Source of the DNA: Bdellovibrio sp. ArHS
GTDB lineage: Bacteria; Bdellovibrionota; Bdellovibrionia; Bdellovibrionales; Bdellovibrionaceae
Direction: 5' to 3'
Assembly: GCF_000786105.1 (NCBI RefSeq)
Contig: NZ_JTEV01000027.1
Coordinates: 1-42,803 of the forward strand
Length of the DNA: 42,803 nt
Made by a program: the position numbers and the translations under genes. Numbering within the stretch: the stretch's first letter is position 1; each line of letters begins with the position of its first letter. Shown piece after piece: positions 1,771 to 32,953 of this stretch. Under the pieces are notes generated by a model. That model saw only the letters and a program-made list of their open reading frames with translations, had not been told where the DNA came from and did no database searches.

Positions 1771-3948
1771 ATGAGAATATCTTTGTTATTTTTGGCCATT
1801 GCTGGTTTGACGATGTCTTTTCAGAACTGTGGTCAGAGTTCGATGGATTCAACTTCTTTCGAGAGTGCCGACTCTGCAAGTGAAGCGTATCGGAGCATGG
1901 CTTCTTCGGCCGCGCCCACGTTGGATAACTTGTGGAAGGGGGAGGCTTACTTTCGGCCCTACAGAAAGACGGTTTTTAGTTCGAACTCTGAATTCGCAGA
2001 TGGGGATCCCTCAAAAGTTTTTGTAAAAGACGGCGTTTGGTATGCCGTGGTTCGCAGTCAGTATCATACTTCAAACTCCACTTGCGGGACGCGCATTGCT
2101 TCTGTTTTATACGCCTCTTACGACAAAGGAATCACGTGGTCGCAAAGACAGGTGGTCGCCGATCCGGGCAACCAGTCTTCGATGTGCGCGCACGTGGATG
2201 GCTCGATCTATTACGAGGCTGCGGAAAAAACCTGGTACTATCTAGGCCAGTGTCTTTCCCTCAAAAGACGCTGGGATCTTTGTTTATACACGCGCAACGC
2301 CGCAGATCCAATGGGCAGTTGGCAAGCCAGTTCGCGTAATCCCGTTGTGAAAAGTCAGGATCTTTGGTCGCAGATCTGCAGAAGTTCCGGAGCCTGTCCA
2401 ACCACGACAAGTGAAGAGGGAACTCCGCAAATCGTGAGTCGTTCCAATGGGTGGTTTTATGTCACCTTCCATGGGTTTAAAGATGGAATGGGATATCGAG
2501 GGATGGCGAAGACCCAAGATTTTTCGACGTGGGTGACGACGGACGCAGATCTTTCGCGGGGACCGTTGTTTAAGGCCAGCCATTGTCAGGGAGCGGTGCC
2601 TGGTTGTATTGGTGCGGGTTATGCCTCTATTTTGAGTGAGGGCTCTTACAACTATCAATTGATTGAAACGCCAACGGTCAGTCTGGCGTGTACCCAGGGG
2701 CAGCGATGGCCGTTTCTTTTGACTCGAACTGCGAATCTCTATGCGCAGTCAGTGACGTGGCAGACCTTGGCGAACAAAGCCTTTATCGAAAATTCGCTGC
2801 CGGGGCCCATAGGATGTCATCTTCAATACGCGCATCTGTTTAAAGATGGTGCGGAAATTTATTTGGGCGTGAGCTACTATACCGATACAGGCGATTGGTA
2901 TCCTTATGGACTCTATAAGTTGGAGTGGAATGGAACGCCTCTTCAAGACATTCCTTCTTTAAATGAACTGACGCGCATTCGTTTTCTGGGTGTTGATATC
3001 TCGGGCGGCGGTACCAATACCGGTTCTGGTTCTGGCGGACCGCCTTCTTCCGGTGGCAGTGCAGGTTCGCAAACCACCTTTCAAGCAGAAACGGAATTAA
3101 ATCATCAGATCGGCTATCTGGATGGTTTGGGATGGGCTGTGAATACGGCCTCCAATCCGCGGAAGGGTTATCTCAGTTATGGTCCCTACAAATCTTTTCC
3201 GGCAACAGTGAGCTCGGTGGATTTTTATTTGATGGTCGATAATAACAGTGCTGACAACGCGGTGGTCGCTTCTCTCGATGTGCATGATGCGACGGCGGGG
3301 CAGATTCTGGGAAAAAAAGACATCACTCGAAAAGAGTTTTTGGCGCCCCGCCAATATCAGAAGTTCTCTGTTCCAGTCTCTTTACAAGGGCGGGAAAACC
3401 ATCTGCTTGAAGCTCGCACCTACAGTCATGGTGTTTCGTATCTGAATATTGACGGAGTGATTTTTAGTTCCCCAGCCAGTGTGATACCGACACCTTCGCC
3501 AAGTCCAACACCTGTCGAGCCGCCACCGCCTGCGCCTTCGGAGAAGATTGTCTTTGAAGGCGAGGGGACAGGTGTTTTTCAGCATCAGTTGGGTTATGCT
3601 GATGGCAATGGCTGGTCGGCAAACACCGCTTCAAGTCCGCGTTCGGGATACCTTGCCTATGGACCTTATGCGACTTTGGCGGGAAAAAGCCGCGCCGATT
3701 TTTATCTTTTAGTGGATAACAACAGCGCGGACAATCTGGTGGTCGTCGTCATTGATATTCGGGATGCGACGACAGGCGAAGTGCTGGCGCGAAAAGAAAT
3801 TCGTCGCAAAGAATTTCCAGGGCCTTATATCTATGGGGCTTTCTCTTTGTCCTTTTCGACGGCGGGAAGAGATACGCATTTATTCGAAACTCGCGTCTAC
3901 ACTCAAGGTGTTTCTTACGTGAAGTTTGATGGAGTGGTGATTAATTAA
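1771..3948 (+). CDS. sialidase-like propeller lipoprotein with two C-terminal repeat modules
   Basis: A 725-aa predicted secreted lipoprotein. The signal peptide ends in SFQNC with Cys20 as lipidation site; Asn at -1 is unusual for a lipobox. Residues about 50-405 resemble five-bladed or sialidase/GH43-type propellers and contain one perfect Asp-box, SYDKGITW (116-123). A Gly/Ser-rich linker (about 410-432) leads to a first module of about 130 aa, then a Pro-rich linker, then a second homologous module ending at the C-terminus. Both modules share NHQ/QHQ-x-GY-DG, YGPY and VDNNSADN motifs, suggesting carbohydrate-binding domains. ATG 1771 has a strong RBS (aggaagggg). The 3' end overlaps the convergent gene by 8 bp. 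A glycan-binding or hydrolysing role is inferred; no catalytic residues were assigned. Confidence 0.7.
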   Translation: MRISLLFLAIAGLTMSFQNCGQSSMDSTSFESADSASEAYRSMASSAAPTLDNLWKGEAYFRPYRKTVFSSNSEFADGDPSKVFVKDGVWYAVVRSQYHTSNSTCGTRIASVLYASYDKGITWSQRQVVADPGNQSSMCAHVDGSIYYEAAEKTWYYLGQCLSLKRRWDLCLYTRNAADPMGSWQASSRNPVVKSQDLWSQICRSSGACPTTTSEEGTPQIVSRSNGWFYVTFHGFKDGMGYRGMAKTQDFSTWVTTDADLSRGPLFKASHCQGAVPGCIGAGYASILSEGSYNYQLIETPTVSLACTQGQRWPFLLTRTANLYAQSVTWQTLANKAFIENSLPGPIGCHLQYAHLFKDGAEIYLGVSYYTDTGDWYPYGLYKLEWNGTPLQDIPSLNELTRIRFLGVDISGGGTNTGSGSGGPPSSGGSAGSQTTFQAETELNHQIGYLDGLGWAVNTASNPRKGYLSYGPYKSFPATVSSVDFYLMVDNNSADNAVVASLDVHDATAGQILGKKDITRKEFLAPRQYQKFSVPVSLQGRENHLLEARTYSHGVSYLNIDGVIFSSPASVIPTPSPSPTPVEPPPPAPSEKIVFEGEGTGVFQHQLGYADGNGWSANTASSPRSGYLAYGPYATLAGKSRADFYLLVDNNSADNLVVVVIDIRDATTGEVLARKEIRRKEFPGPYIYGAFSLSFSTAGRDTHLFETRVYTQGVSYVKFDGVVIN
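3073..3945 (+). repeat. two homologous modules of ~400 bp inside the lipoprotein gene
   Basis: The stretches at about 3073-3471 and 3541-3945 encode two diverged copies of one ~133-aa domain, separated by a Pro/Ser-rich linker (PTPSPSPTP, PPPPAP). Shared motifs in order are LGY/IGY-DG-GW, NTAS-PR-GYL-YGPY, DFYL-VDNNSADN, RKEF and GVSY-DGV. This is an internal domain duplication, not a mobile repeat. Confidence 0.85.
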
Positions 3949-5098
3949 AACAAGCATTCGCGCGCACGGACTCAAAGCGGGGGTCTTGGATAATAGCGCC
4001 GTGGCCGTTGATTTCGGTGCCTTCGCGGTCGCGATAGGGGGCCCCTGAGACTTCGACCCAATGGGTGTTTTTAACCAGGCCCATGTATTGAAAGCTGGTG
4101 ATGAAGTTGCTGTAGGCACTATCGTCGATAGACAAAGCGGCCTTCATATTGGTGATGGGGGTTGCCGGGTGGGCTCTTTCTGTGAACCAGTCGGCGATCG
4201 GCGCGACAGGGGAAACCAAGTCGGCGATGTCGTAGGGGCCGCCCAGAAAACAGGCGCGACGGACTTGCACCCATAAAGCAATAAAGTAAGCATGGCCTGA
4301 ACCTTGCGAATGGCCACCGATGTTCAATGCGGAATAGTTGATGGCACCGGCCTTGGTTAAGGGAATTGGCAAAAAGACATTTGCAGAAATCAGATGGGCG
4401 CTTAATTTACGAAGACGCTGTTCAATGCTATCGGCAAGTGGTGTGTCGGCGTAGGGAAAAACATCCTGCCCCGTGATTTTTTCTTTGCGCAGAAGACCCG
4501 CACAGTTATTAAAATTTTTGTAGGTCATGCAGACATCTTCATTGACCATAAAACGATTATCATAGGCAAGTTGCACGACGATGAAGCCTTTCTTCATGCC
4601 CTCTTCCAGTAAAATGTCATTGTCAAACTTAGCTGTCCAAGGATTGTAGGGACGTCCGTAAGAGCCCACAAAATGAAGATAGGTTCCTTGAATTTCAGTC
4701 CCCGTGGGCGGAAAGCCGATGGCGTGATAACCAAAGCCAAACCGCTGATCGGCAAGTGTTCCCGTACCATAAATATCACGGGCGGAGGGATCGATGCGAC
4801 TGGGTTTGATGGCGCAGAAAAGACCATAAAGCCCGGCTTTGGCGACATCACAAATCGTCGCGGAAGGTTGCACATAGAATGCGTTTTCAGACGGTGGTAC
4901 TGGCTCACTGCCACTATCTGCGGGAGGATTTTCATCATCTGTCACCGGTTGTTCCGGGACCGGGTCCTTGCCCCCAGAAGAGGGTGGGCTTTCCATGACG
5001 GTGGTGAAGCCGCCGGAAGAGCAGTTGGTGAAACCCACCATCAAAAAATTCAGAATAAGAACGGAGAGGGCGCAGCCTCTCCATTTTTGCAAGTTCAT
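3941..5098 (-). CDS. alpha/beta-hydrolase-like lipoprotein
   Basis: A 385-aa secreted lipoprotein. The signal peptide ends in GFTNC (Cys26), again with Asn at -1, and is followed by a Pro/Glu/Asp-rich linker typical of a tether. The body contains GHSQGSG, a classic nucleophile elbow with Ser264, within a fold of hydrophobic strands, and a GHG motif near the C-terminus that could supply the catalytic His. It is probably a serine esterase or related hydrolase; the substrate is unknown. The start is placed at ATG 5098, one base after the stop of the upstream Cys-rich gene, which implies translational coupling. It is the last gene of the 9855-3941 unit. The stop lies within the convergent sialidase-like gene. 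Confidence 0.7.
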   Translation of the reverse strand: MNLQKWRGCALSVLILNFLMVGFTNCSSGGFTTVMESPPSSGGKDPVPEQPVTDDENPPADSGSEPVPPSENAFYVQPSATICDVAKAGLYGLFCAIKPSRIDPSARDIYGTGTLADQRFGFGYHAIGFPPTGTEIQGTYLHFVGSYGRPYNPWTAKFDNDILLEEGMKKGFIVVQLAYDNRFMVNEDVCMTYKNFNNCAGLLRKEKITGQDVFPYADTPLADSIEQRLRKLSAHLISANVFLPIPLTKAGAINYSALNIGGHSQGSGHAYFIALWVQVRRACFLGGPYDIADLVSPVAPIADWFTERAHPATPITNMKAALSIDDSAYSNFITSFQYMGLVKNTHWVEVSGAPYRDREGTEINGHGAIIQDPRFESVRANACFN

Positions 5099-5099
5099 C

Positions 5100-5327
5100 T
5101 TACCCCACACCTTTTTTCTTTTTCATTGCTTGAATGATTTTTTCTTTACAGGCTTGCGATAAATTTTCTCGATTGTCTTTAAGACATTTTTTTATCCGGC
5201 CATCTCCAGGTTGGACGTCGGGACAGAGCTTTTTTACATCTTCTTGGCATGGGCCGTCGCCTTGCGCGAGAGCGACTCCTGTGGTTAATAAATTGATCAA
5301 GGCAAGTAATAGGATTTTTTTCTTCAT
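5100..5327 (-). CDS. small secreted Cys-rich repeat protein (GLG1/Cys_rich_FGFR type)
   Basis: A 75-aa protein with an N-terminal signal peptide ending about ALAQG. The mature part contains PCQEDVKKLCPDV, GDGRIKKCL and LSQACKEKI, the four-Cys pattern of the cysteine-rich repeat found in Golgi apparatus protein 1 and in short bacterial exported proteins. It ends in a Lys-rich tail. ATG 5327 has RBS aaaggggga just upstream; longer in-frame extensions lack a signal peptide at the N-terminus. It is probably periplasmic or secreted and disulfide-bonded. It sits between two lipoprotein genes in a tight unit, with gaps of 16 and 1 bp. Function unknown. Confidence 0.75.
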   Translation of the reverse strand: MKKKILLLALINLLTTGVALAQGDGPCQEDVKKLCPDVQPGDGRIKKCLKDNRENLSQACKEKIIQAMKKKKGVG

Positions 5328-5343
5328 TGTTCCCCCTTTGATT

Positions 5344-5586
5344 CTATTGGTAAAAAACGGCCTGTATTTCGTAGTCATTCGCCAGACTTTTATTTTCTGT
5401 GATCTCTCCAAAAGCAGCTTGCACTTGATATTTGCCGGAATGACTTGTCGCAATTTCCGCGACAACTAAATCCGGTGTCAGACGAGGTTCCAGCGCAAAA
5501 GTTTGCGAGTCGCCGCTAAAGATGTGTGCTTCCATTGAGCAGGCAGTCAGTCCTAGAAATGCGATTAAAAGAAAAAGTTCTTTCAT
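5344..5586 (-). CDS. small lipoprotein, unknown function
   Basis: An 80-aa protein. The signal peptide ends in LTAC, a canonical lipobox with Cys16, and leaves a mature part of about 65 residues. It has no recognisable domain; the remainder alternates hydrophobic and polar residues as in a small beta-rich domain. RBS aaggga precedes ATG 5586. It starts 8 bp after the prepilin-like gene stop, so cotranscription is likely. It may be an accessory factor for export or anchoring of the neighbouring fibre or pilin-like protein, but this is guilt by association only. Confidence 0.65.
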   Translation of the reverse strand: MKELFLLIAFLGLTACSMEAHIFSGDSQTFALEPRLTPDLVVAEIATSHSGKYQVQAAFGEITENKSLANDYEIQAVFYQ

Positions 5587-5594
5587 ATGTTCCC

Positions 5595-6503
5595 TTATTT
5601 AAAACACGTACAACGAATTGAGGGGGGGCCGCTGACAGCGTTGCACTCTGACAAGACCCCCGTGGTGAAACGAAACATCGGATATTCGGGCCCGGCATTG
5701 GTGGCGCGGCAAGCGCCACTGGCTGACATCTCGGCGGAACAATCCTGTCGGCACCACCGCGAGCAGGCGGTATTAGCAAAAAAGTAGTGAGGTCCATTGG
5801 CTACTTCGGGACAGCTGATCGCCGGCGAGGAGGCCGGCATATATTGATTCAGTGTCGAGATCTGAACGACATACCCAACCACGCTGGCGTTCGCAGAAAC
5901 ACAGCTGCTGACAGTGCGGGCCACTTTAGGCTTTGACGTGTCGACTTGGACGGGAAATTCAAACGAGATCGGCTTCAAAGCCCGTCGGCTGGATTCGGGT
6001 TTAAAAGACACCGTGAGCTTCGCCATCCACTCAAGCTTATTTCCGGCAAGATCCACATAACTTGTGGGACGCAGATCAGTCACTTGCACTTTGTCGATGA
6101 TGAGCCCCGAAGAGAGCACTTGATTCTCCCGAACGATGATTCCGTCAGTGGGACTGCAACCCGCTCGAATGCGTCGCAGATTTAAAGACTCGCTGCCATC
6201 TTCTCGGTTGGCATTGAAGCGCAGATTGGCGTCGTTCCAATTGTCCACGGTCAAATCGGGATTGAGCTGACAGGTGCAAAGATCAGGATTTTGAAATGTT
6301 AACATCAACTGATTTTTAAGATCCAAAGAGTTCGCTTTTTGTTCCAGAAATTGGAACTCGCGCTGTTGATTTACGACGACCGAGGCTGACACCGTCGCCA
6401 GAAAGCCAAGCAGGCCGAAGGCCATTAAAAGCTGTACGATGCCTTGACCACGCTCATCAAATTCTGGAAACGGCAAGTGTGATATTTGTCGAACTGGTTT
6501 CAT
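5595..6503 (-). CDS. prepilin-like Cys-rich secreted protein
   Basis: A 302-aa protein. The N-terminus has a 19-residue leader ending in ERG followed by QGIVQLLMAFGLLGFLAT, a hydrophobic helix resembling a type IV prepilin/pseudopilin signal cleaved after Gly19. The residue at mature position 5 is Gln rather than the usual Glu. The mature part holds 12 Cys, concentrated near the C-terminus (CSRWC, RQDC, RCTC), which points to disulfide bonding outside the cytoplasm. ATG 6503 is preferred over an upstream TTG at 6533, because aaagga precedes it and the leader then has normal length. It lies 37 bp downstream of the fibre gene and 8 bp upstream of a lipoprotein. Family not identified. Confidence 0.65.
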   Translation of the reverse strand: MKPVRQISHLPFPEFDERGQGIVQLLMAFGLLGFLATVSASVVVNQQREFQFLEQKANSLDLKNQLMLTFQNPDLCTCQLNPDLTVDNWNDANLRFNANREDGSESLNLRRIRAGCSPTDGIIVRENQVLSSGLIIDKVQVTDLRPTSYVDLAGNKLEWMAKLTVSFKPESSRRALKPISFEFPVQVDTSKPKVARTVSSCVSANASVVGYVVQISTLNQYMPASSPAISCPEVANGPHYFFANTACSRWCRQDCSAEMSASGACRATNAGPEYPMFRFTTGVLSECNAVSGPPSIRCTCFK

Positions 6504-6540
6504 CGTACCGATATCCTTTTCTTTAAAAGGCAAATTCCAA

Positions 6541-9500
6541 TTATCTTTCGCTCAGTGAATTCTCAATCCGCTCAAGGCGGGCTTTGAGTTCTTCGATTTC
6601 TTTTGTCTTGGCGGCATTTTCTTGTTCCAGGACTTTGACTCGCGCATTCGTTCCTAAGACTTTGTCATAAAGTTCTTTGACCGAGTTAATGACCAGATAA
6701 ATCAGACCGTTGTAATTCACGATTTTGATCTCGGTTTCATCGAGGTCTTCGGAATGAAGCTTGACGAACTTCTTCGTGACCAATTCGGGGGCGGTTTTTT
6801 CGACATCCTGGGCGATCACGCCAAGTTCAAGATTTTCGCTAGAGGGCTGACCGCCAAGACCGTTATAGCGATAGTATTTGGGAGCGATTCCCTGCAAAGC
6901 CTCAAGGCCCAATTTAAAAGGCTGGATGTCTGTTTTTAAGCGTTCATCTGAAGCACAAGTTCCGCCGACGACGCCGACCCCGGCGCGATAGCAAGTGGTG
7001 GTGTGAATATCCCCATCGACATTGAAAGCATAGGTCGCCGCAAGTTTTCCGACAGCGACGTTACCGCCGTTAGGGTTTAAAAACAGGGGATAGTTCGAAG
7101 AAAGATCGGTCGACATGGCATTTTGAATCCAGGCTCCGCCCGTGCCGGCATAGCCAAAATCCAATGTGGTAGTGCCGATGGCGGACAATCTTAAAAACGC
7201 CCCACTCTGGGTGGTTCCCGAGGTCGCCGGAGCAGCGTAGCTTCCACTTGTTACTTGCAGAGGCGCCGTGGGTGCGGTCGTGCTGACACCGACGCGCCCA
7301 GCAGGGTCGACAGTCAACGCTGCTTTGGTAATGCCAGAAGCATAGTTGTTGGAGGTTCCAAAGTGCATATAAGAACCTGCACCCGAGAACAGCACACCAA
7401 TTCTTGCCAAGGGGGCCGTGCTGGTATTGGCACGGAAATCGATTCCCGAAAAATCATTGGTGGATGTCGGTCCTCGCAGTGTCACACCCAAAGGCGTTGT
7501 GCCGATAAAACTTGTCACTCCAGCCGGGCCGGCGACGTCAAGTTTAGAGGCTGGCGAAGTCACCCCGATGCCGACGCTTCCGCCCGAGCCGTTCAGAATA
7601 ATGGGGCCCTTCGTGGCATGCGACGTGGAATCCAAAGTTAAATTTTCCGAAGCAGCGGTTCCACCGCTCAGCGTTTGTCCCCCGGAACGTCCCGCAAGGC
7701 GCGCGTACTGAGTAAACGTATCATTCGACAAAGCACTCCAGGTCGGGACACCAGAACCATTTGTCGTCAGCACGGAACTGTTCGCTGTGGCTAAGCCTGT
7801 CACGACGTTAGTTCCCGATGAGTACAGCAATTGATTGATCGTCGTTGTCGCAGGAAAAGTGGCTGTCGTCCAAGCGGGGCCTGTGACGGTCCACTGCAAA
7901 TGCGATCCCGTCGTCGAACCCCCAAGAGCTGTTAAGACGCCGGAACTGTCTGCGGTGATAACACTGTTGGTGCCCCATCCGGTGCCCGAGATTTTGGCGG
8001 CAAGTTGCGTTTGAATGTTGGCGGTGACACCAGAGAGATATCCAAGCTCAGTATCCGTCACCGTGGCGGCTGCGGGAAGTCCGGTGGCATTAGTAACAAG
8101 CACTTTGTTAGCTGAGAGCGCCGTGTGTTCAACGATCGATCCTGAATTTGAAATCATGATTCGATTGTTGTTCAGCGCCGTTGTGGAATTTGTACCACCC
8201 CGAGCGATCGGCAAAATTCCAGATGTCAGTTTTGCGACGTCTAAACTGGGAATCATCGCGGTGGGCAAAAGACCGCTGGCGTTCATTTTGGCAATTTTAT
8301 TGGCGTCCGCAACGCCGCCTGTGGTTCCTGCATTCAAAGTCAGCGTCGGGGTCGTTGAACCATTGGCGACGGTGATATCTGTATTTGCTGAGCTGACATT
8401 AGTCACCGTTCCAGAATCTGCCCAGGTCAGTTCAACATTGGCGCCGCTGACACCAGAGATCTTAAGCATCTGTCCCGCAGCTCCTTTGTCGACAGGAAGT
8501 TTAAGGACATAGTCATTGCTGAAGCCCGCAGAGGGGGCAGCGATGGAAGCATATTTTCCTATGCCATCATAAATTCGCACCAGTGAAAACACACCAGAAC
8601 CCGCAGTCACACTTTGAGTTGTGGAAATAGTGGCTGTTGTAGATATCGGCGTATTCCCGCTCAATCCCCCGGCGGCGGTCACCAGAGTACTTACGGACGA
8701 GCAGATCCAGCCATTTGCAACCGTCCAACTCAAGACCTGATCGGCGGCACAGGCTTTGTTGTAGAAGTTTGTGCCATTAGAAACGATCACACCACTATTG
8801 ACGGCCATAGCTCCTGCAAAGTCTAAATTGCTGACTCCGAACGGGGGAAGAACCGAGGCACTGATCTTTCCGCTGCCATCCAGTTGAACGATTTTGCCGG
8901 CAGTAGTTCCGGAATCTACTTCAAGGTTGTTTGAACCATTCACGCGCAGGCCGGTCCCGACCGACGCTTTTGCGAAGTTTTGCACAGTGGGATCATTTTC
9001 AACACCGACGCCGGACTCGTCGCCGCAGGCCCAAGTTCCTGAGATCATCTTCAGAATCTTTCCGTTCACACAGGTTAATCCGGAAAGCTGGCCGACCGGT
9101 GTGGGAATCGAAGTGATTTTTGACCACGGCAGATCCGCGATCGCACTGCCGGGCACAGAGTTATTGTGCAAAGAAGAACCGTCCTGCGAATCGTAAGTTT
9201 CAAACGCACTTCCATTCCAGCGCACGGTTTCTCCAGTTGCCGACGTTAAGCTGGAAAAAAAAGACTCGAGCAGGGACTGGGTGACTTGGGCTGCGGGATT
9301 TGTCTGAATGAAGTCATTTTCATCCTTGCCATTTAGTTTTTCAGAGTTCACGGCATAAGGAACAGCTCGCATGTTCAGGTCAACAACCAGATTGTCTCCC
9401 GCCAAAGAAGTTCTTAAACGCAGTTTGCGACTGTGCGTAGAGTTAGGAACGTAAGAACCTGCGTTGTCCAAGATATTGTTATCCGCATCCACGCATTTTA

Positions 9501-9855
9501 AACCTGTTCTGGGGATGCTATTGTCGAAGACTTCAGCCAGAGTCAAAGTCGGTGAAGGATTGTAGTTTGCAGGGGCCGAAAAATCTCCCTGTCCTAAAAC
9601 CAAATTCAAATATCCATTTGTGATTGTGACATTGGAAAACTGTTCTTCACGAAGAACGCAGGCGCCTGTCGGGGACAGCACTTGCAAAGTGACGGTGAGG
9701 CCGGAAGCGGTGGGATAACTGCCGTCAGTTTTTTTAATAACCGCTTGAAATCCAATTCCTTTATGCTGAGACCAGGCAACAGAAGAGAATAAATAAATCG
9801 TCGCTCCGAAAAGCGCTAAAAGAGCATGTATTTTAAAGAGACGAGCCGAATACAT
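6541..9855 (-). CDS. large secreted fibre protein with C-terminal S74 chaperone domain
   Basis: A 1104-aa protein. A signal peptide (about 1-29) is followed by a beta-rich head region, then long Gly/Thr/Ser/Asn-rich low-complexity stretches typical of trimeric fibres (for example LPIARGGTNS). The C-terminal domain has SDERLKTDI starting at Ser969, with Lys974. These are the Ser-Lys pair of the peptidase S74 intramolecular chaperone, which trimerises and then autocleaves. A terminal coiled coil (about 1070-1100) follows. This layout matches the mosaic adhesive trimer fibres described in Bdellovibrio, which sit on the predator surface and bind prey. An RBS (agaggt) precedes ATG 9855. It is the first gene of a five-gene unit. 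The ligand cannot be told from sequence. Confidence 0.82.
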   Translation of the reverse strand: MYSARLFKIHALLALFGATIYLFSSVAWSQHKGIGFQAVIKKTDGSYPTASGLTVTLQVLSPTGACVLREEQFSNVTITNGYLNLVLGQGDFSAPANYNPSPTLTLAEVFDNSIPRTGLKCVDADNNILDNAGSYVPNSTHSRKLRLRTSLAGDNLVVDLNMRAVPYAVNSEKLNGKDENDFIQTNPAAQVTQSLLESFFSSLTSATGETVRWNGSAFETYDSQDGSSLHNNSVPGSAIADLPWSKITSIPTPVGQLSGLTCVNGKILKMISGTWACGDESGVGVENDPTVQNFAKASVGTGLRVNGSNNLEVDSGTTAGKIVQLDGSGKISASVLPPFGVSNLDFAGAMAVNSGVIVSNGTNFYNKACAADQVLSWTVANGWICSSVSTLVTAAGGLSGNTPISTTATISTTQSVTAGSGVFSLVRIYDGIGKYASIAAPSAGFSNDYVLKLPVDKGAAGQMLKISGVSGANVELTWADSGTVTNVSSANTDITVANGSTTPTLTLNAGTTGGVADANKIAKMNASGLLPTAMIPSLDVAKLTSGILPIARGGTNSTTALNNNRIMISNSGSIVEHTALSANKVLVTNATGLPAAATVTDTELGYLSGVTANIQTQLAAKISGTGWGTNSVITADSSGVLTALGGSTTGSHLQWTVTGPAWTTATFPATTTINQLLYSSGTNVVTGLATANSSVLTTNGSGVPTWSALSNDTFTQYARLAGRSGGQTLSGGTAASENLTLDSTSHATKGPIILNGSGGSVGIGVTSPASKLDVAGPAGVTSFIGTTPLGVTLRGPTSTNDFSGIDFRANTSTAPLARIGVLFSGAGSYMHFGTSNNYASGITKAALTVDPAGRVGVSTTAPTAPLQVTSGSYAAPATSGTTQSGAFLRLSAIGTTTLDFGYAGTGGAWIQNAMSTDLSSNYPLFLNPNGGNVAVGKLAATYAFNVDGDIHTTTCYRAGVGVVGGTCASDERLKTDIQPFKLGLEALQGIAPKYYRYNGLGGQPSSENLELGVIAQDVEKTAPELVTKKFVKLHSEDLDETEIKIVNYNGLIYLVINSVKELYDKVLGTNARVKVLEQENAAKTKEIEELKARLERIENSLSER

Positions 9856-10006
9856 TTAGTACCTCTTACTGTCTCTTTAACGGTTCTTTAATAAGCCTTA
9901 TGAAGATATCTCAAATAGAAACCGTGTCGGTTGTGTCGGATGTGTCTTTGATTCTTGCTTAAAAAGAAATAAGGCGGGAAAGGGAATTGTGAGCAGACTC
10001 AGATTC

Positions 10007-10030
10007 GAGGCCGGAGTTTTCTCCGACCTC
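10007..10030 (-). terminator. hairpin downstream of FGE-like lipoprotein gene
   Basis: On the minus strand, gaggtcggag (10030-10021) pairs with ctccggcctc (10016-10007) around an AAAA loop, a 10-bp stem with one G-U pair. It begins 12 bp after the stop of the 10042-12282 gene. There is no strong U-tract, so it is a candidate terminator or 3'-end stabiliser. Confidence 0.5.
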
Positions 10031-10041
10031 AAAGAACTATT

Positions 10042-12282
10042 TTAAGGACGATAGACGCAGCGATAGCCGACGTCGGTTCCCAAGTTGGTCGTGGCTGTGA
10101 CATTCTTCATTTTCAATGTGTAAATTCCGATGTCATCAGCCATCGCGTAAGAGCCGCCGCGCAGAAGCACTGAACTTGCGGTGTGCGGGAAAAAGACACC
10201 CGTGCCTTGGGTGTTGTTGTCGCTGGATCGAGCCGGAACATAGTGAGAGGAATCAATATTCGTGCACTGTGAATTCGCAGCCACAGAAGCAAGTTGATAA
10301 GAGGTCGTGCCGTCTCCCACTGTACAAGCGGGAGCCAATTGATAACTTGCGCCCGTGGTGCCAGAGTCATAATCAATGACTTCTTCGGCGTTGCCCGAAA
10401 AGTCCCAGATAACTTGCCCCGAAGGAAGATAGTGTGTGCGACGGTATTTGAACTCGGTGGTGGGGACGTGGTCAGCGGTCATGCCATCCCAGTGATTCGT
10501 GGTATCTGAAATCGCGCGGACAGTGTCGTTGGCATTCCAGTTGCCTTTGTTCATTTCGCCTGTGCCGACAACTCCTGAGGACCAATTTGAAGCGACAGAA
10601 GCGATCTGATCCGCAATAGTCATCCATTCAAGGTTGCTGATGAGATTGTATTTTGTGCCGCCCGAGTTCAGGCCCAGGCATGTATCTTTGGCAAAGCGTC
10701 CCGAGACATTCGTGGAAGGATAGCTGCTTGCCGTGGTTCCTCCATTGATGCGTGATTCATAGGCCATCACGCAAAAGGGGCTTACGTTTTTGACCTTATC
10801 ACCAGGGATGGGCAGATAGTCGGTAGGACAACTTGCCACCTCGTAGGCGATGGAGGTGACGGAACAGGCCGAAGTGACATCGTTGCGATCTTTTATTTTA
10901 TAATAAAAGTTGTAACTGCCAGCACTCAATGTGGACGTAGTCAACGTGACGCTCGTTCCCTGTGATTTTTTGCTGGCAACTAGAGTTGAACAGTTCGCAT
11001 CAGAATATAAAGAAACCGTGTGGCCGTACTGAACTCCTGATACCGTGATGTCAGGCGTGGAATCAAAATCCTTTGCCCAATCAAGACTCATTCGCACAAG
11101 CGGATTTAGACGATACACGCAACGAAAGCCAAAGATCGAACCTAAAGCGGTCGCGGTGTCTTGAGTCGAGTAGCGTAAACCATACAGACCTGAGCGGTTC
11201 ATGAAGTTGTATCCGCCACCGCGACTCAAAGCGCGGCCGGAATCAAGACTCCCATAGAACGACCCGACGTATTGAAGAGAGTAAGAATTACCGGGATTTG
11301 TCGGCATATAATGTGTCGTGCCTAGGGCGGGACAATAGTTATTGTCTAAAATACTTTTTGCGTCCCGGTCTGCATTTGCACCGACGACACACGCAGGTGG
11401 AGACGTGTAGGTTGATTGAGTTCCATAGTCGACGATTTCCGCCGCGTTACCCGCAAAGTCCCAGAGCACGGCCGCATTGGAAAGAACGTGAGTCCGACGG
11501 TATTCGTGATTGGTAGTGGGATTTCCCGCTAAAGTCACACCGGACCAAGGATCACTTTCATCGCTGACGGCCATCGGCGTTTTCTCATTATTACTATTGC
11601 CGTAACTCAAATAAGAATTGACGTTTCCGTTGTGCCAATTGTCAGCGACGGCGTAAGCGTCATCAGCAATCGTCATCCATTCTTGATTGCTGATAAGATC
11701 GTAGTAAGTGTTTCCGCCAGAATTCAAGGCGCGACAATTACTTTTGGCTTCTTCTGCGGAAACGTTGGTCCACGGGGCGAGGTTGGCCTGAGAGGTGGCC
11801 ACCGAAGAAACATTTTTTGCTTCAAACTGCATGACACAAAAAGGTGCGACACCTCGGCTGGGGGCTCCGGGGATTCTTATATATCCAGCAGGGCACTGAA
11901 CATATTCGTATGAAATCGTTGCCGTGGAGCATGCGCCACTTTCTGATTTTGCGTAAAAGTTGTGAACGCCACTCGAAAGTCCCGTCAACTCAAAATCGAT
12001 CGTGCTTCCTGAAGCGACTCCCTGCGCGAGCTGTGTCTGACAATTTGAATCCGAATACAACGCGACCGTCTGACCACTTAAGACACCCACTACAGTCACC
12101 GTGACATCGGCTTTGGTGTCGCGAGCATTTTCAACATAAAGTGCACTCGGGGTGCCATCGACAGGAGTCTCGGTCGAAGGATCGTCGCCAATTTCTTCCT
12201 CTTTAGGTGCGCAAGACGTTGCCATCAACGCGAAGCATGCCAGGCAAGAAATAAGTGAGTATTTTATATTTTTTTGTTTCAT
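10042..12282 (-). CDS. lipoprotein with two tandem Ig-like plus FGE/SUMF1-like units
   Basis: A 746-aa lipoprotein. The signal peptide ends in ATSC. The mature protein is a duplication: an Ig-like stretch of about 80 aa followed by a formylglycine-generating-enzyme-like domain, then the same again. Each FGE-like copy begins with CP-x-x-Y-I/L-x-IPG and PFCVM, has LISN-EWMTIAD and YRRTH, then WDF-GNA-E, and ends in RGG/S-Y and RCVYR. Neither copy has the Cys pair of true FGE after the RGGS-like motif, so enzyme activity is doubtful and a binding role is more likely. The start at 12282 is set by the signal peptide; no good RBS is visible. Such proteins are common in Bdellovibrio-like genomes. 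Confidence 0.75.
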   Translation of the reverse strand: MKQKNIKYSLISCLACFALMATSCAPKEEEIGDDPSTETPVDGTPSALYVENARDTKADVTVTVVGVLSGQTVALYSDSNCQTQLAQGVASGSTIDFELTGLSSGVHNFYAKSESGACSTATISYEYVQCPAGYIRIPGAPSRGVAPFCVMQFEAKNVSSVATSQANLAPWTNVSAEEAKSNCRALNSGGNTYYDLISNQEWMTIADDAYAVADNWHNGNVNSYLSYGNSNNEKTPMAVSDESDPWSGVTLAGNPTTNHEYRRTHVLSNAAVLWDFAGNAAEIVDYGTQSTYTSPPACVVGANADRDAKSILDNNYCPALGTTHYMPTNPGNSYSLQYVGSFYGSLDSGRALSRGGGYNFMNRSGLYGLRYSTQDTATALGSIFGFRCVYRLNPLVRMSLDWAKDFDSTPDITVSGVQYGHTVSLYSDANCSTLVASKKSQGTSVTLTTSTLSAGSYNFYYKIKDRNDVTSACSVTSIAYEVASCPTDYLPIPGDKVKNVSPFCVMAYESRINGGTTASSYPSTNVSGRFAKDTCLGLNSGGTKYNLISNLEWMTIADQIASVASNWSSGVVGTGEMNKGNWNANDTVRAISDTTNHWDGMTADHVPTTEFKYRRTHYLPSGQVIWDFSGNAEEVIDYDSGTTGASYQLAPACTVGDGTTSYQLASVAANSQCTNIDSSHYVPARSSDNNTQGTGVFFPHTASSVLLRGGSYAMADDIGIYTLKMKNVTATTNLGTDVGYRCVYRP

Positions 12283-12289
12283 CGGGAAA

Positions 12290-12297
12290 TTATCGGA
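12290..12297 (-). promoter_or_regulatory. TCCGATAA -10-like element close to start codon
   Basis: On the minus strand TCCGATAAT ends about 7 nt before ATG 12282. It matches 7 of 8 bases of the sigma-28 -10 and also contains GATAAT, 5 of 6 of a sigma-70 -10. Together with the missing RBS this suggests a leaderless or near-leaderless transcript. No convincing -35 was found. Confidence 0.3.
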
Positions 12298-12380
12298 TTC
12301 TTCAGAAAGCCCATGAGTCGAGGTTGTGAATCCAGGACCAAGAGGCTTCATGACTTTGGGCGAGGCTTGGAACGTTTGTT

Positions 12381-30232: not shown

Positions 30233-30352
30233 ATGGGAGTGCATTTTTTTTCGGCGCTTTTTAGTGGATTTGTATGAAGGAAGAACAGTATTAATTTGAG
30301 ATTTTGATTTGTGTGGTTAAGGCCCCGTTTAGATCAACCGAAAAGTAAAGGT

Positions 30353-32953
30353 ATGGTCAAGATCCTTTTCGGTGCGTTTCTACTTTTGCAGGTCTTTGCG
30401 CTGACGGCGTGTCAGATGGATCTGAACATCGCTGATTTAAATCCTTTAGAAAATGCCTCCACACCTCCACCGTCCTCATTTCAAGGAACATTGAAAAAGC
30501 AGAATGCTGTTTCTTTTTATGAGGACTTCGATGCCTCGGAAGAAGCCTCTTCGGTGATCTTGTTAGCGAATAATAAATATCTAGTTGCTGGTCTGCTTTA
30601 TAATAAGCCCGCGGTCTGGATGTACAATGCAGATTTTTCTATTAACACGGGATTCGCTCGTGATGGCTTTCTTTACCTAGCTTTGGAATCTGGAAAAAGC
30701 TATGAGCGAATCACTCTCTTTGAAGACTCTAATAATAAAATTCTGGTGATTCTGAATACCAGCCCTGTCGAGACCGGAAATAATTCGACTCGATATCTCT
30801 ATCGTTTGAACTTAGATGGCAGCCTGGATTCTTCTTTTGGCAACGGTGGGCAGTTGGTTCTTGAGACCAACACTCTGGTTCGTCGGACCTCTTTCATTTT
30901 ACAAAGTTCTTCGGGCTATTATTTTGTGAACACCGATTCAACCGGCACTCAGCTTACACCTTCTAGTTGGTCGTTTGACTGGCGCGCCTCTGTTTCACAC
31001 CTCCTTTATGACGGAAGTAGCGACGCTTCTTTTGGAAGTGGTGGAACGTACACTCTGCCCCTGCCTCCTGCCGCTGCGACTTATAAATTTCAGTCGCCAG
31101 GGCGAGCTGCTTTGGATTCTAACGGCGATTTATACATTGCCACGACCATCAGCCAAGATGGCTCTGATGCAGGATACATTTACAAAGTATTGCCATCAGG
31201 GAGCGTCGATGCGACCTGGGGGACCGCGGGAATTGTTTCGGAGATACAAAGTTTTCCCAACAGAATCTCTTTTTCAGGAGTTTTTATCTACAATAGCAAG
31301 CTCTATGTTTCTGCCATTAAGTCCCATCCTGATGATGACTTTAGAGTCTACCGCTACGATATAGATGGAACCTTGGACACGACCTTTAACGGTACGGGAT
31401 ACTATAATTTTGCGAACGTGTCTGGGGCCTCGGGGGCATACGATGGGGGAAGCATTGCCGGGTTTGATTCTTCAGGAAATATTTATGTGCAAGGACAAAG
31501 TACCGAAAGCGGTGTGCCGACGATCTCACTCTTCGTGGCAAGGTTGACGTCAGGGGGAGCGCTCGACATCAGTTACGGTAATAGCGGCTTTAATTTATAC
31601 GCCACTGGCATCACTAATTATGGCGGCATGACTCGCACCAGTCTGGTTAAATCTGACGGATCTATCATGGCTTTTTACGAGACCTATCATGAAGTCATGG
31701 GAGACAATCTTTTTAATTTAGTCACTGCAAAGATTCTTCCGACCGGGAATCTGGATAACACTTATGGCACTCTGGGCCTCAAAGAAGACGACGAGGTTCG
31801 CTCTTATTTAACGGACCTGAAAGAAAATGCCCAAGAAATTCTAAATGATACGGAAGGAAATTTTTATTCTGTCAGCTCCTTCTTCGGAGCGCACTCTGGC
31901 GACATTGTGCGCATTTCCAAGTATCTTTCCGCTGGAAGTGTTGATAGCGCCTTTGGTTCTTCAGGTGTTCTAAAAATTCCTCATTTCGCTTTGGGTGGAG
32001 TGGCGATTCAGGACGATAAACTTTATGTTTCTGGTTATGATTATGACGTCGTCACTAAAAATTTCGCCCTGACCATCTATGGGTACAACACCGACGGGAC
32101 CGTAAATAGCAGCTTTGGCGTAGCCGGAAAAGCGGTTGTGCCTTTGGGGGGCTATCACGTTATTTCGCACTTTCCCTCGGTGGCGAGTATCTTTCATAGT
32201 GACGGAAGTTTGACGGTGTCGACAGTGGTTGCTGACACGAACGATGACGCTTTCACCGCTCTTTGGCGATTGAATGCTCTTGGTCAGGCCGTGGCAAATC
32301 CTTCCACGCTTCAGAATATTACCATTGTAGGCCCTTGTGATTCATATCAAAAGTCTCTGTTAGTGGGTGTACCTGCGACAGATCAGTTCTATGTTTTGGG
32401 TCCTGACTCGAACAACATGAATGAAAATTCGCTCTATCTGTACAACCAGGATTTCAGTAAAGTGACTTCTTTTGGCAGTGCGGGGGAACGGGCCCTGTCT
32501 GGTTTGGGTGCTGATATTCCGGACTATTCGTTCCTGCAAGGTGCTTTCTTTTTTAAAGGTGCTTTGTATCTGACGATTTATCTTGTCGACGCTGATTCCG
32601 AAGTGATGGCCTTAGCAAAACTCGACAGTGACGGAAGTTTGAACACGAATTTCGGCAACTCGGGGACTCTTACTTTTGCTCATGACCTGTCCTACGCGGG
32701 CTATGAATGGGCGCAATTTATGCCCAACGAGTCTGAAGAAGAAATTGTGGTAATCAGCTTTAATGGTCAGGGGGACCCGTCAACCCTACAAATGATTTCG
32801 GCAGATGGCGTAACCCTAGACACGCCAATAAATCTGGCCACGTCCCAGAGCGACACCTATCTGGATAAATGCAGTTTTTCATCGCAGTCTGGAGCTCTGT
32901 GTACGGAGTTTGACGCGCAAGCAGGCAGTTTTAAAATAAACTTATATAAATAA
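30353..32953 (+). CDS. delta-60 repeat beta-propeller lipoprotein
   Basis: An 866-aa lipoprotein. The signal peptide ends in LTAC (Cys20 from ATG 30353). The mature protein carries about eleven copies of a short turn motif of the form DG-S-L-D-x-S/T-FG-x-x-G spaced 45-90 residues apart, the delta-60/DUF5122 repeat that builds beta-propeller blades. It is predicted to sit on an outer membrane or the surface; function unknown. The start is uncertain: ATG 30353 gives a textbook lipoprotein signal but aaagg lies too close, while an in-frame GTG at 30311 would add 14 basic residues. A hairpin follows the stop. It stands apart from both neighbours. Confidence 0.72.
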   Translation: MVKILFGAFLLLQVFALTACQMDLNIADLNPLENASTPPPSSFQGTLKKQNAVSFYEDFDASEEASSVILLANNKYLVAGLLYNKPAVWMYNADFSINTGFARDGFLYLALESGKSYERITLFEDSNNKILVILNTSPVETGNNSTRYLYRLNLDGSLDSSFGNGGQLVLETNTLVRRTSFILQSSSGYYFVNTDSTGTQLTPSSWSFDWRASVSHLLYDGSSDASFGSGGTYTLPLPPAAATYKFQSPGRAALDSNGDLYIATTISQDGSDAGYIYKVLPSGSVDATWGTAGIVSEIQSFPNRISFSGVFIYNSKLYVSAIKSHPDDDFRVYRYDIDGTLDTTFNGTGYYNFANVSGASGAYDGGSIAGFDSSGNIYVQGQSTESGVPTISLFVARLTSGGALDISYGNSGFNLYATGITNYGGMTRTSLVKSDGSIMAFYETYHEVMGDNLFNLVTAKILPTGNLDNTYGTLGLKEDDEVRSYLTDLKENAQEILNDTEGNFYSVSSFFGAHSGDIVRISKYLSAGSVDSAFGSSGVLKIPHFALGGVAIQDDKLYVSGYDYDVVTKNFALTIYGYNTDGTVNSSFGVAGKAVVPLGGYHVISHFPSVASIFHSDGSLTVSTVVADTNDDAFTALWRLNALGQAVANPSTLQNITIVGPCDSYQKSLLVGVPATDQFYVLGPDSNNMNENSLYLYNQDFSKVTSFGSAGERALSGLGADIPDYSFLQGAFFFKGALYLTIYLVDADSEVMALAKLDSDGSLNTNFGNSGTLTFAHDLSYAGYEWAQFMPNESEEEIVVISFNGQGDPSTLQMISADGVTLDTPINLATSQSDTYLDKCSFSSQSGALCTEFDAQAGSFKINLYK

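Follow-up and report, generated by a model that had tools for sequence, protein, structure and literature searches.

Gene Organization of the Locus

The question raised by this locus is which of five tightly packed genes belong functionally with the adhesive fibre encoded first among them. The window, i.e., the whole stretch of DNA analysed (42,803 nucleotides), is one whole contig of the 3.54-Mb draft genome of Bdellovibrio sp. ArHS. Five open reading frames, all on the minus strand, occupy positions 3941–9855, with gaps of 37, 8, 16 and 1 bp from the fibre gene to the hydrolase gene; these coordinates and this spacing, given in a preliminary description of the DNA, were confirmed. The features considered are the following:

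6541–9855, minus: mosaic adhesive trimer (MAT) fibre, 1104 aa; matches to S74 and the MAT N-domain
9256–9855, minus: fibre signal peptide and N-domain (first 200 aa), 'KGI.FQ' subtype; 41 matches
5595–6503, minus: pilin-like protein, 302 aa, ATG at 6503; helix/beta model, weak pilin matches
5344–5586, minus: LIP lipoprotein, 80 aa (LIP, a MAT-adjacent lipoprotein family defined in the present analysis); lipobox, family alignment, MAT linkage
5100–5327, minus: secreted Cys-rich peptide, 75 aa, ATG at 5327; PF00839
3941–5098, minus: alpha/beta-hydrolase-like putative lipoprotein, 385 aa, ATG at 5098; NF047580, GHSQGSG
9856–10041, minus: 186-bp gap 5′ of the fibre gene, likely promoter region of the unit judging by its position

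Purine-rich stretches precede the starts of the four genes that follow the fibre gene. Promoter-like sites at the unit do not exceed chance (6 found, 7.2 expected), and terminator-like sites are present in a pattern that does not settle co-transcription. A strong terminator-like hairpin with 10 pairs (5060–5085, minus; GGAGAGG-CTGCGC-CCTCTCC followed by a T-rich stretch) lies just inside the hydrolase start and could attenuate expression of that gene. On the upstream side, 186 bp from the fibre start, 10042–12351 (minus) encodes a 769-aa protein with two similar halves of ~330 aa. At the opposite end, the hydrolase stop overlaps by 8 bp a convergent plus-strand gene (1771–3948), whose product is a 725-aa putative lipoprotein with an FQNC lipobox and, in its C-terminal part, two similar ~130-aa repeats (IGYLDGLGWAVNTAS / LGYADGNGWSANTAS).

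The Fibre as a Mosaic Adhesive Trimer

The proposal that the largest gene encodes a secreted, trimer-type S74 fibre akin to Bdellovibrio adhesive fibres proved sound. Residues 20–186 match NF053851 (Bdello_MAT_N; E 4.1e-32, 111.2 bits, cut-off 60), the C-terminus matches the S74 family PF13884 (E 1e-12, 48.6 bits, cut-off 22), and the S74 motif SDxxxK is intact as SDERLK (residues 969–974). The protein comprises a signal peptide, a KGIGFQ-type MAT N-domain, a phage-tail-fibre-like shaft, an S74 autoprotease/chaperone (969–1026) and a coiled coil. Judging by these matches, it is a new member of the described MAT family with a divergent N-domain of the KGI.FQ type, and by MAT membership it is predicted to be trimeric and displayed on the cell surface.

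Caulton et al. (2024) reported 21 MAT fibres in Bdellovibrio bacteriovorus HD100 (PMC10769870). The window fibre shares with them the signal peptide, N-domain, shaft, C-terminal S74 with SDxxxK and the presence of many paralogues per genome; it differs in its divergent KGI.FQ N-domain, its longer gene cluster and the position of LIP downstream. NF053851 has 19 matches in the genome of ArHS and at least one in 36 of 40 relatives. A search with the first 200 aa of the window fibre reached 16 of 60 genomes, its own included (41 matches, E ≤ 1e-20). The closest MAT relative (77% in the N-domain) is found in genome G003, where the contig ends inside the gene. No near-identical stretch indicative of recent DNA exchange was found between the window fibre and the other MATs of its genome. 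The shaft and S74 are also common to phage tail fibres and tailspikes carrying an S74 intramolecular chaperone, and PHROG tail fibres match the protein down to 2.4e-20; unlike these, the window fibre is cellular and secreted and has an N-domain of its own, and no phage genes were noted beside it.

Pilin-like, Cysteine-Rich and Hydrolase Genes

The preliminary description joined the five genes into one fibre system, in which the pilin-like, Cys-rich and hydrolase proteins would assemble or arm the fibre. Tight same-strand spacing agrees with this, as does the possible interplay of MATs with type IV pili raised by Caulton et al. (PMC10769870). Pilin-like genes also show a mild enrichment around MATs: of 20 relatives, 6 are within 2.5 kb of one where 1 is expected, but the alignment used was partly seeded at MAT loci, and strand, order and distance vary; the pilin-like gene is thus only loosely linked to MATs.

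In the pilin-like protein a putative prepilin cleavage site (Gly19) is followed by Gln, not Glu, at position 5, and there is a long N-terminal helix. Its model (pTM 0.60) shows a helix at residues 17–71, a beta head and a Cys-rich C-terminus of low confidence; there are 12 Cys in total. A search with this model in Foldseek returned nothing significant, and VIA-align placed a chain of a T2SS pseudopilin (Z 4.2, 3.1 Å over 101 residues) among unrelated entries. The label "prepilin-like" is plausible insofar as the N_methyl domain is matched by 12 of 29 relatives, but the window protein itself matches nothing in Pfam or NCBIfam, N_methyl included. Its resemblance to minor pilins and pseudopilins is weak.

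The Cys-rich peptide matches PF00839 (Cys_rich_FGFR; E 8e-7, 29.4 bits, cut-off 22). Most of the genus has 1–4 copies of its family per genome, the majority of them without a MAT nearby; a weak match occurs immediately upstream of the MAT on contig G000:C21 of the ArHS genome itself. In the hydrolase, which has an FTNC lipobox, the GHSQGSG nucleophile motif noted earlier is real: alignment with six relatives shows invariant Ser264, Asp326 and His366 (alignment numbering). The protein scores against NF047580 (BPSS1187 family; E 2.8e-30) with 105.7 bits, under the cut-off of 125, and appears from this score to be a sub-threshold relative of the family, not a filed member. The hydrolase-family profile matched 9 of the 144 class genomes, including only one other from the genus, and no MAT lies within about 8 kb of the two copies read (the other same-genus copy and an order-level copy).

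No other genome searched, with or without the hydrolase, was seen to carry the five-gene set, and relatives possess numerous MATs without the hydrolase. Given where the hydrolase, Cys-rich and pilin-like genes occur in other genomes, we rejected the five-gene system and regard a single fibre apparatus as quite unlikely. The Cys-rich and hydrolase genes are proposed instead to be passengers specific to this lineage, probably co-transcribed with the fibre gene. The two lipoproteins, both originally taken as fibre partners, part ways here: the scarcity of the hydrolase within the class argues against it, while LIP, owing to its MAT linkage, probably does belong with the fibre, so that the idea holds for at least one of them.

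A Lipoprotein Family Paired with MAT Genes

The window LIP has the lipobox TACSMEAHI and a beta-rich C-terminal segment (FGEIT...YEIQAVFYQ), and is matched by the family profile in a search of its own genome (E 3.2e-25). Alignment A1 of the family, built in part from MAT-adjacent loci, shows an invariant Cys (C16) and a conserved C-terminal FGEIS...EG.FYE segment. The lipobox Cys is followed by Ser at +2; under the usual Lol rule Ser in this position leads to outer-membrane sorting, and LIP is therefore expected in the outer membrane. The structure model is weak, beta-type and of low confidence (pTM 0.29). No credible family for LIP was found in Pfam, NCBIfam or PDB, and profile comparison with the MAT N-domain revealed no resemblance (E 0.11). 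A C-type lectin match (3.6e-6) was dismissed, as it covers 20 residues and no stretch passes alone.

The start of LIP has counterparts elsewhere. An 880-aa ORF in the window (30311–32953, plus) possesses a similar start of the large-lipoprotein type (LTACQMDLNIADL), and LIP-like starts also occur on 800–2600-aa ORFs of other genomes. The lipobox pattern C[SG][MIL][ED]A was accordingly rejected as a MAT-specific signal, since large lipoproteins start likewise; this lipoprotein start is perhaps a genus-wide sorting signal.

A profile search of five genomes gave 24 LIP copies, 20 of which have a same-strand MAT gene no more than 500 bp away (0.58 expected); the window copy, at 954 bp, and one copy 2.6 kb away bring the MAT-linked total to 22. 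Over 12 genomes, 37 of 42 LIP copies stand beside a MAT and five are solo. Two separate genome-wide single-sequence searches, with the 80-aa window LIP and with the MAT N-domain, gave 29 LIP matches outside the ArHS genome, of which 25 are beside a MAT and 2 are solo, the remaining 2 falling outside the check. LIP mostly sits directly upstream of the MAT gene, often overlapping or coupled with it, and at some loci directly downstream. The window LIP is on the same strand as its MAT and downstream of it with the pilin-like gene between, suggesting a rearranged pair in which LIP moved downstream and the pilin-like gene was inserted. Solo copies at L135 3974–4258 and L141 4283–4573 have no MAT nearby and apparently occupy the same conserved locus in two species; solo copies may perhaps work in trans for canonical MATs.

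The pairing depends on the type of N-domain. LIP is found beside 17 of 24 MATs scoring below 150 bits against NF053851 (divergent, 'KGI.FQ'-like) and beside 5 of 77 canonical ones (Fisher p 7e-10); the other 72 of these canonical MATs, with an 'LTYQGRI' N-domain, have no LIP neighbour. Most canonical fibres have no lipoprotein gene of any kind beside them, and an adjacent anchor is therefore not a general need.

LIP and its MAT also diverge together. Pairwise distances of LIP and of the MAT N-domain correlate over 21 non-redundant pairs (r 0.86, p 2e-4), with signal sequences removed (0.84) and among seven paralogous pairs of the ArHS genome (0.91). Species history does not account for the within-genome correlation; co-duplication can. 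LIP and MAT could be mere neighbours, duplicated and transferred together as a cassette, LIP having a separate function, e.g., as a surface adhesin of its own: adjacency of a linked pair yields correlated trees, and solo LIP copies exist. However, the pairing outlasts deep N-domain divergence and changes of gene order and is largely limited to certain N-domain subtypes, and we hold such an arrangement to be quite unlikely. Within the KGI subclass, distances of the window LIP and MAT are uncorrelated (Spearman 0.11, p 0.63). Since the window pair is moreover rearranged, the case for a functional partnership is stronger for the LIP family than for the window locus.

Possible Role of LIP

MAT fibres allow Bdellovibrio to recognise a diversity of prey. 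According to their discoverers, the N-domain would attach to an element of the predator surface that has yet to be identified and that would hold the invariant fibre end (PMC10769870). LIP is a candidate N-domain partner because it is a putative lipoprotein, has Ser at +2 and a predicted beta-rich C-terminus, and accompanies one class of N-domain. We infer that it may be the N-domain-bound surface element for the divergent KGI.FQ-like subclass. On balance we favour a core of the cluster consisting of a MAT prey-adhesive fibre and its cognate LIP, the latter binding the N-domain and anchoring or presenting the fibre at the outer membrane. Both proteins would enter the periplasm by Sec, and LIP would be lipidated at the lipobox Cys and reach the expected outer-membrane location. 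Its C-terminal beta-rich segment would then bind the conserved N-terminal domain of the MAT trimer, so that the fibre is held or presented there with the S74-matured tip toward prey.

The main rival, which we consider unlikely though deserving of attention, is that LIP helps to assemble or export the fibre (as a periplasmic chaperone or an outer-membrane translocation helper), pairing with it only transiently. At many loci LIP is the leading gene, immediately ahead of the fibre gene and frequently with an overlap, the passage of MATs across the outer membrane is still without a described route, and subtype specificity would suit a dedicated chaperone. However, the small LIP protein, whose fold is only weakly predicted, does not resemble known chaperones, and LolB matches among PDB entries are marginal (E about 0.04).

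The proposed anchoring role would have a functional parallel. SadB-type trimeric lipoproteins accompany trimeric autotransporters, and LIP would similarly be the accessory lipoprotein of a trimeric adhesin whose gene is its neighbour; the analogy claims no homology, and MATs, unlike those systems, have no obvious autotransporter barrel. The preliminary description knew of no described system with this gene set. This is wrong for the fibre, which is a MAT protein (PMC10769870), but stands for the lipoprotein pairing: our literature search found no description of a lipoprotein partner of MATs, and the main text of PMC10769870 does not mention lipoproteins. If the anchoring reading is true, LIP is the surface anchor of those Bdellovibrio prey-recognition fibres with which it is paired; its recurrence beside fibres of the same type across the genus makes LIP the strongest candidate so far for the part holding such fibres on the predator surface. 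LIP pairing also offers a gene-neighbourhood criterion to sort MATs into attachment classes.

LIP and Other Lipoproteins at HD100 Loci

Genome G006 contains sequences 100% identical to PDB entries 8ol4 (Bd2439) and 8okw (Bd2734), and is therefore HD100 or identical to it at those loci. LIP lies directly upstream of both crystallised fibres, with a 4-bp overlap with Bd2734 and a gap of about 10 bp to Bd2439, taking its published 1107-aa start. These loci combine MAT and LIP as in the window, and Bd2439 has the same KGI.FQ N-domain type. They differ in that LIP is directly upstream and that the flanks read showed neither a pilin-like nor a hydrolase gene. The fibre ends differ as well: Bd2439 and Bd2734 are of the NS74 type and carry TNF-like tips, and the window fibre terminates in S74. 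The tractability of HD100 makes the attachment question testable there by single-gene deletion and co-purification.

Different lipoproteins accompany other HD100 fibres. One of 198 aa precedes, with a 4-bp overlap, a fibre we take to be Bd3182 from its 922-aa length, and one of 92 aa precedes the presumable Bd2740, recognised by length and place. The small lipoproteins directly upstream of Bd3182, its relative in the ArHS genome and Bd2740 (L130 3382–3978, L118 3542–4102 and L105 9397–9675) have CSD/CTD starts and are possibly partners of other N-domain subtypes. To a broader reading we give slightly less than even weight: each MAT with a divergent N-domain would have a dedicated outer-membrane lipoprotein docking that domain, with distinct lipoproteins per subtype (LIP for KGI.FQ, KGIQISG and ITYHGR; others beside Bd3182 and Bd2740).

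A C-terminal hairpin common to all MAT-adjacent lipoproteins was not established: the pattern caught 24 of 42 lipoproteins near MATs and 6 of 57 far from them, mostly LIP, and a blind prediction made from it, of a MAT beside a lipoprotein at G024:C1 about 246.7 kb, failed. Finally, a lipoprotein of ~210–230 aa with a LIP-like start (L129 4127–4759 and L115 2063–2758) has its gene in divergent orientation, one gene from a short MAT (601–626 aa), by its length presumably Bd2872.
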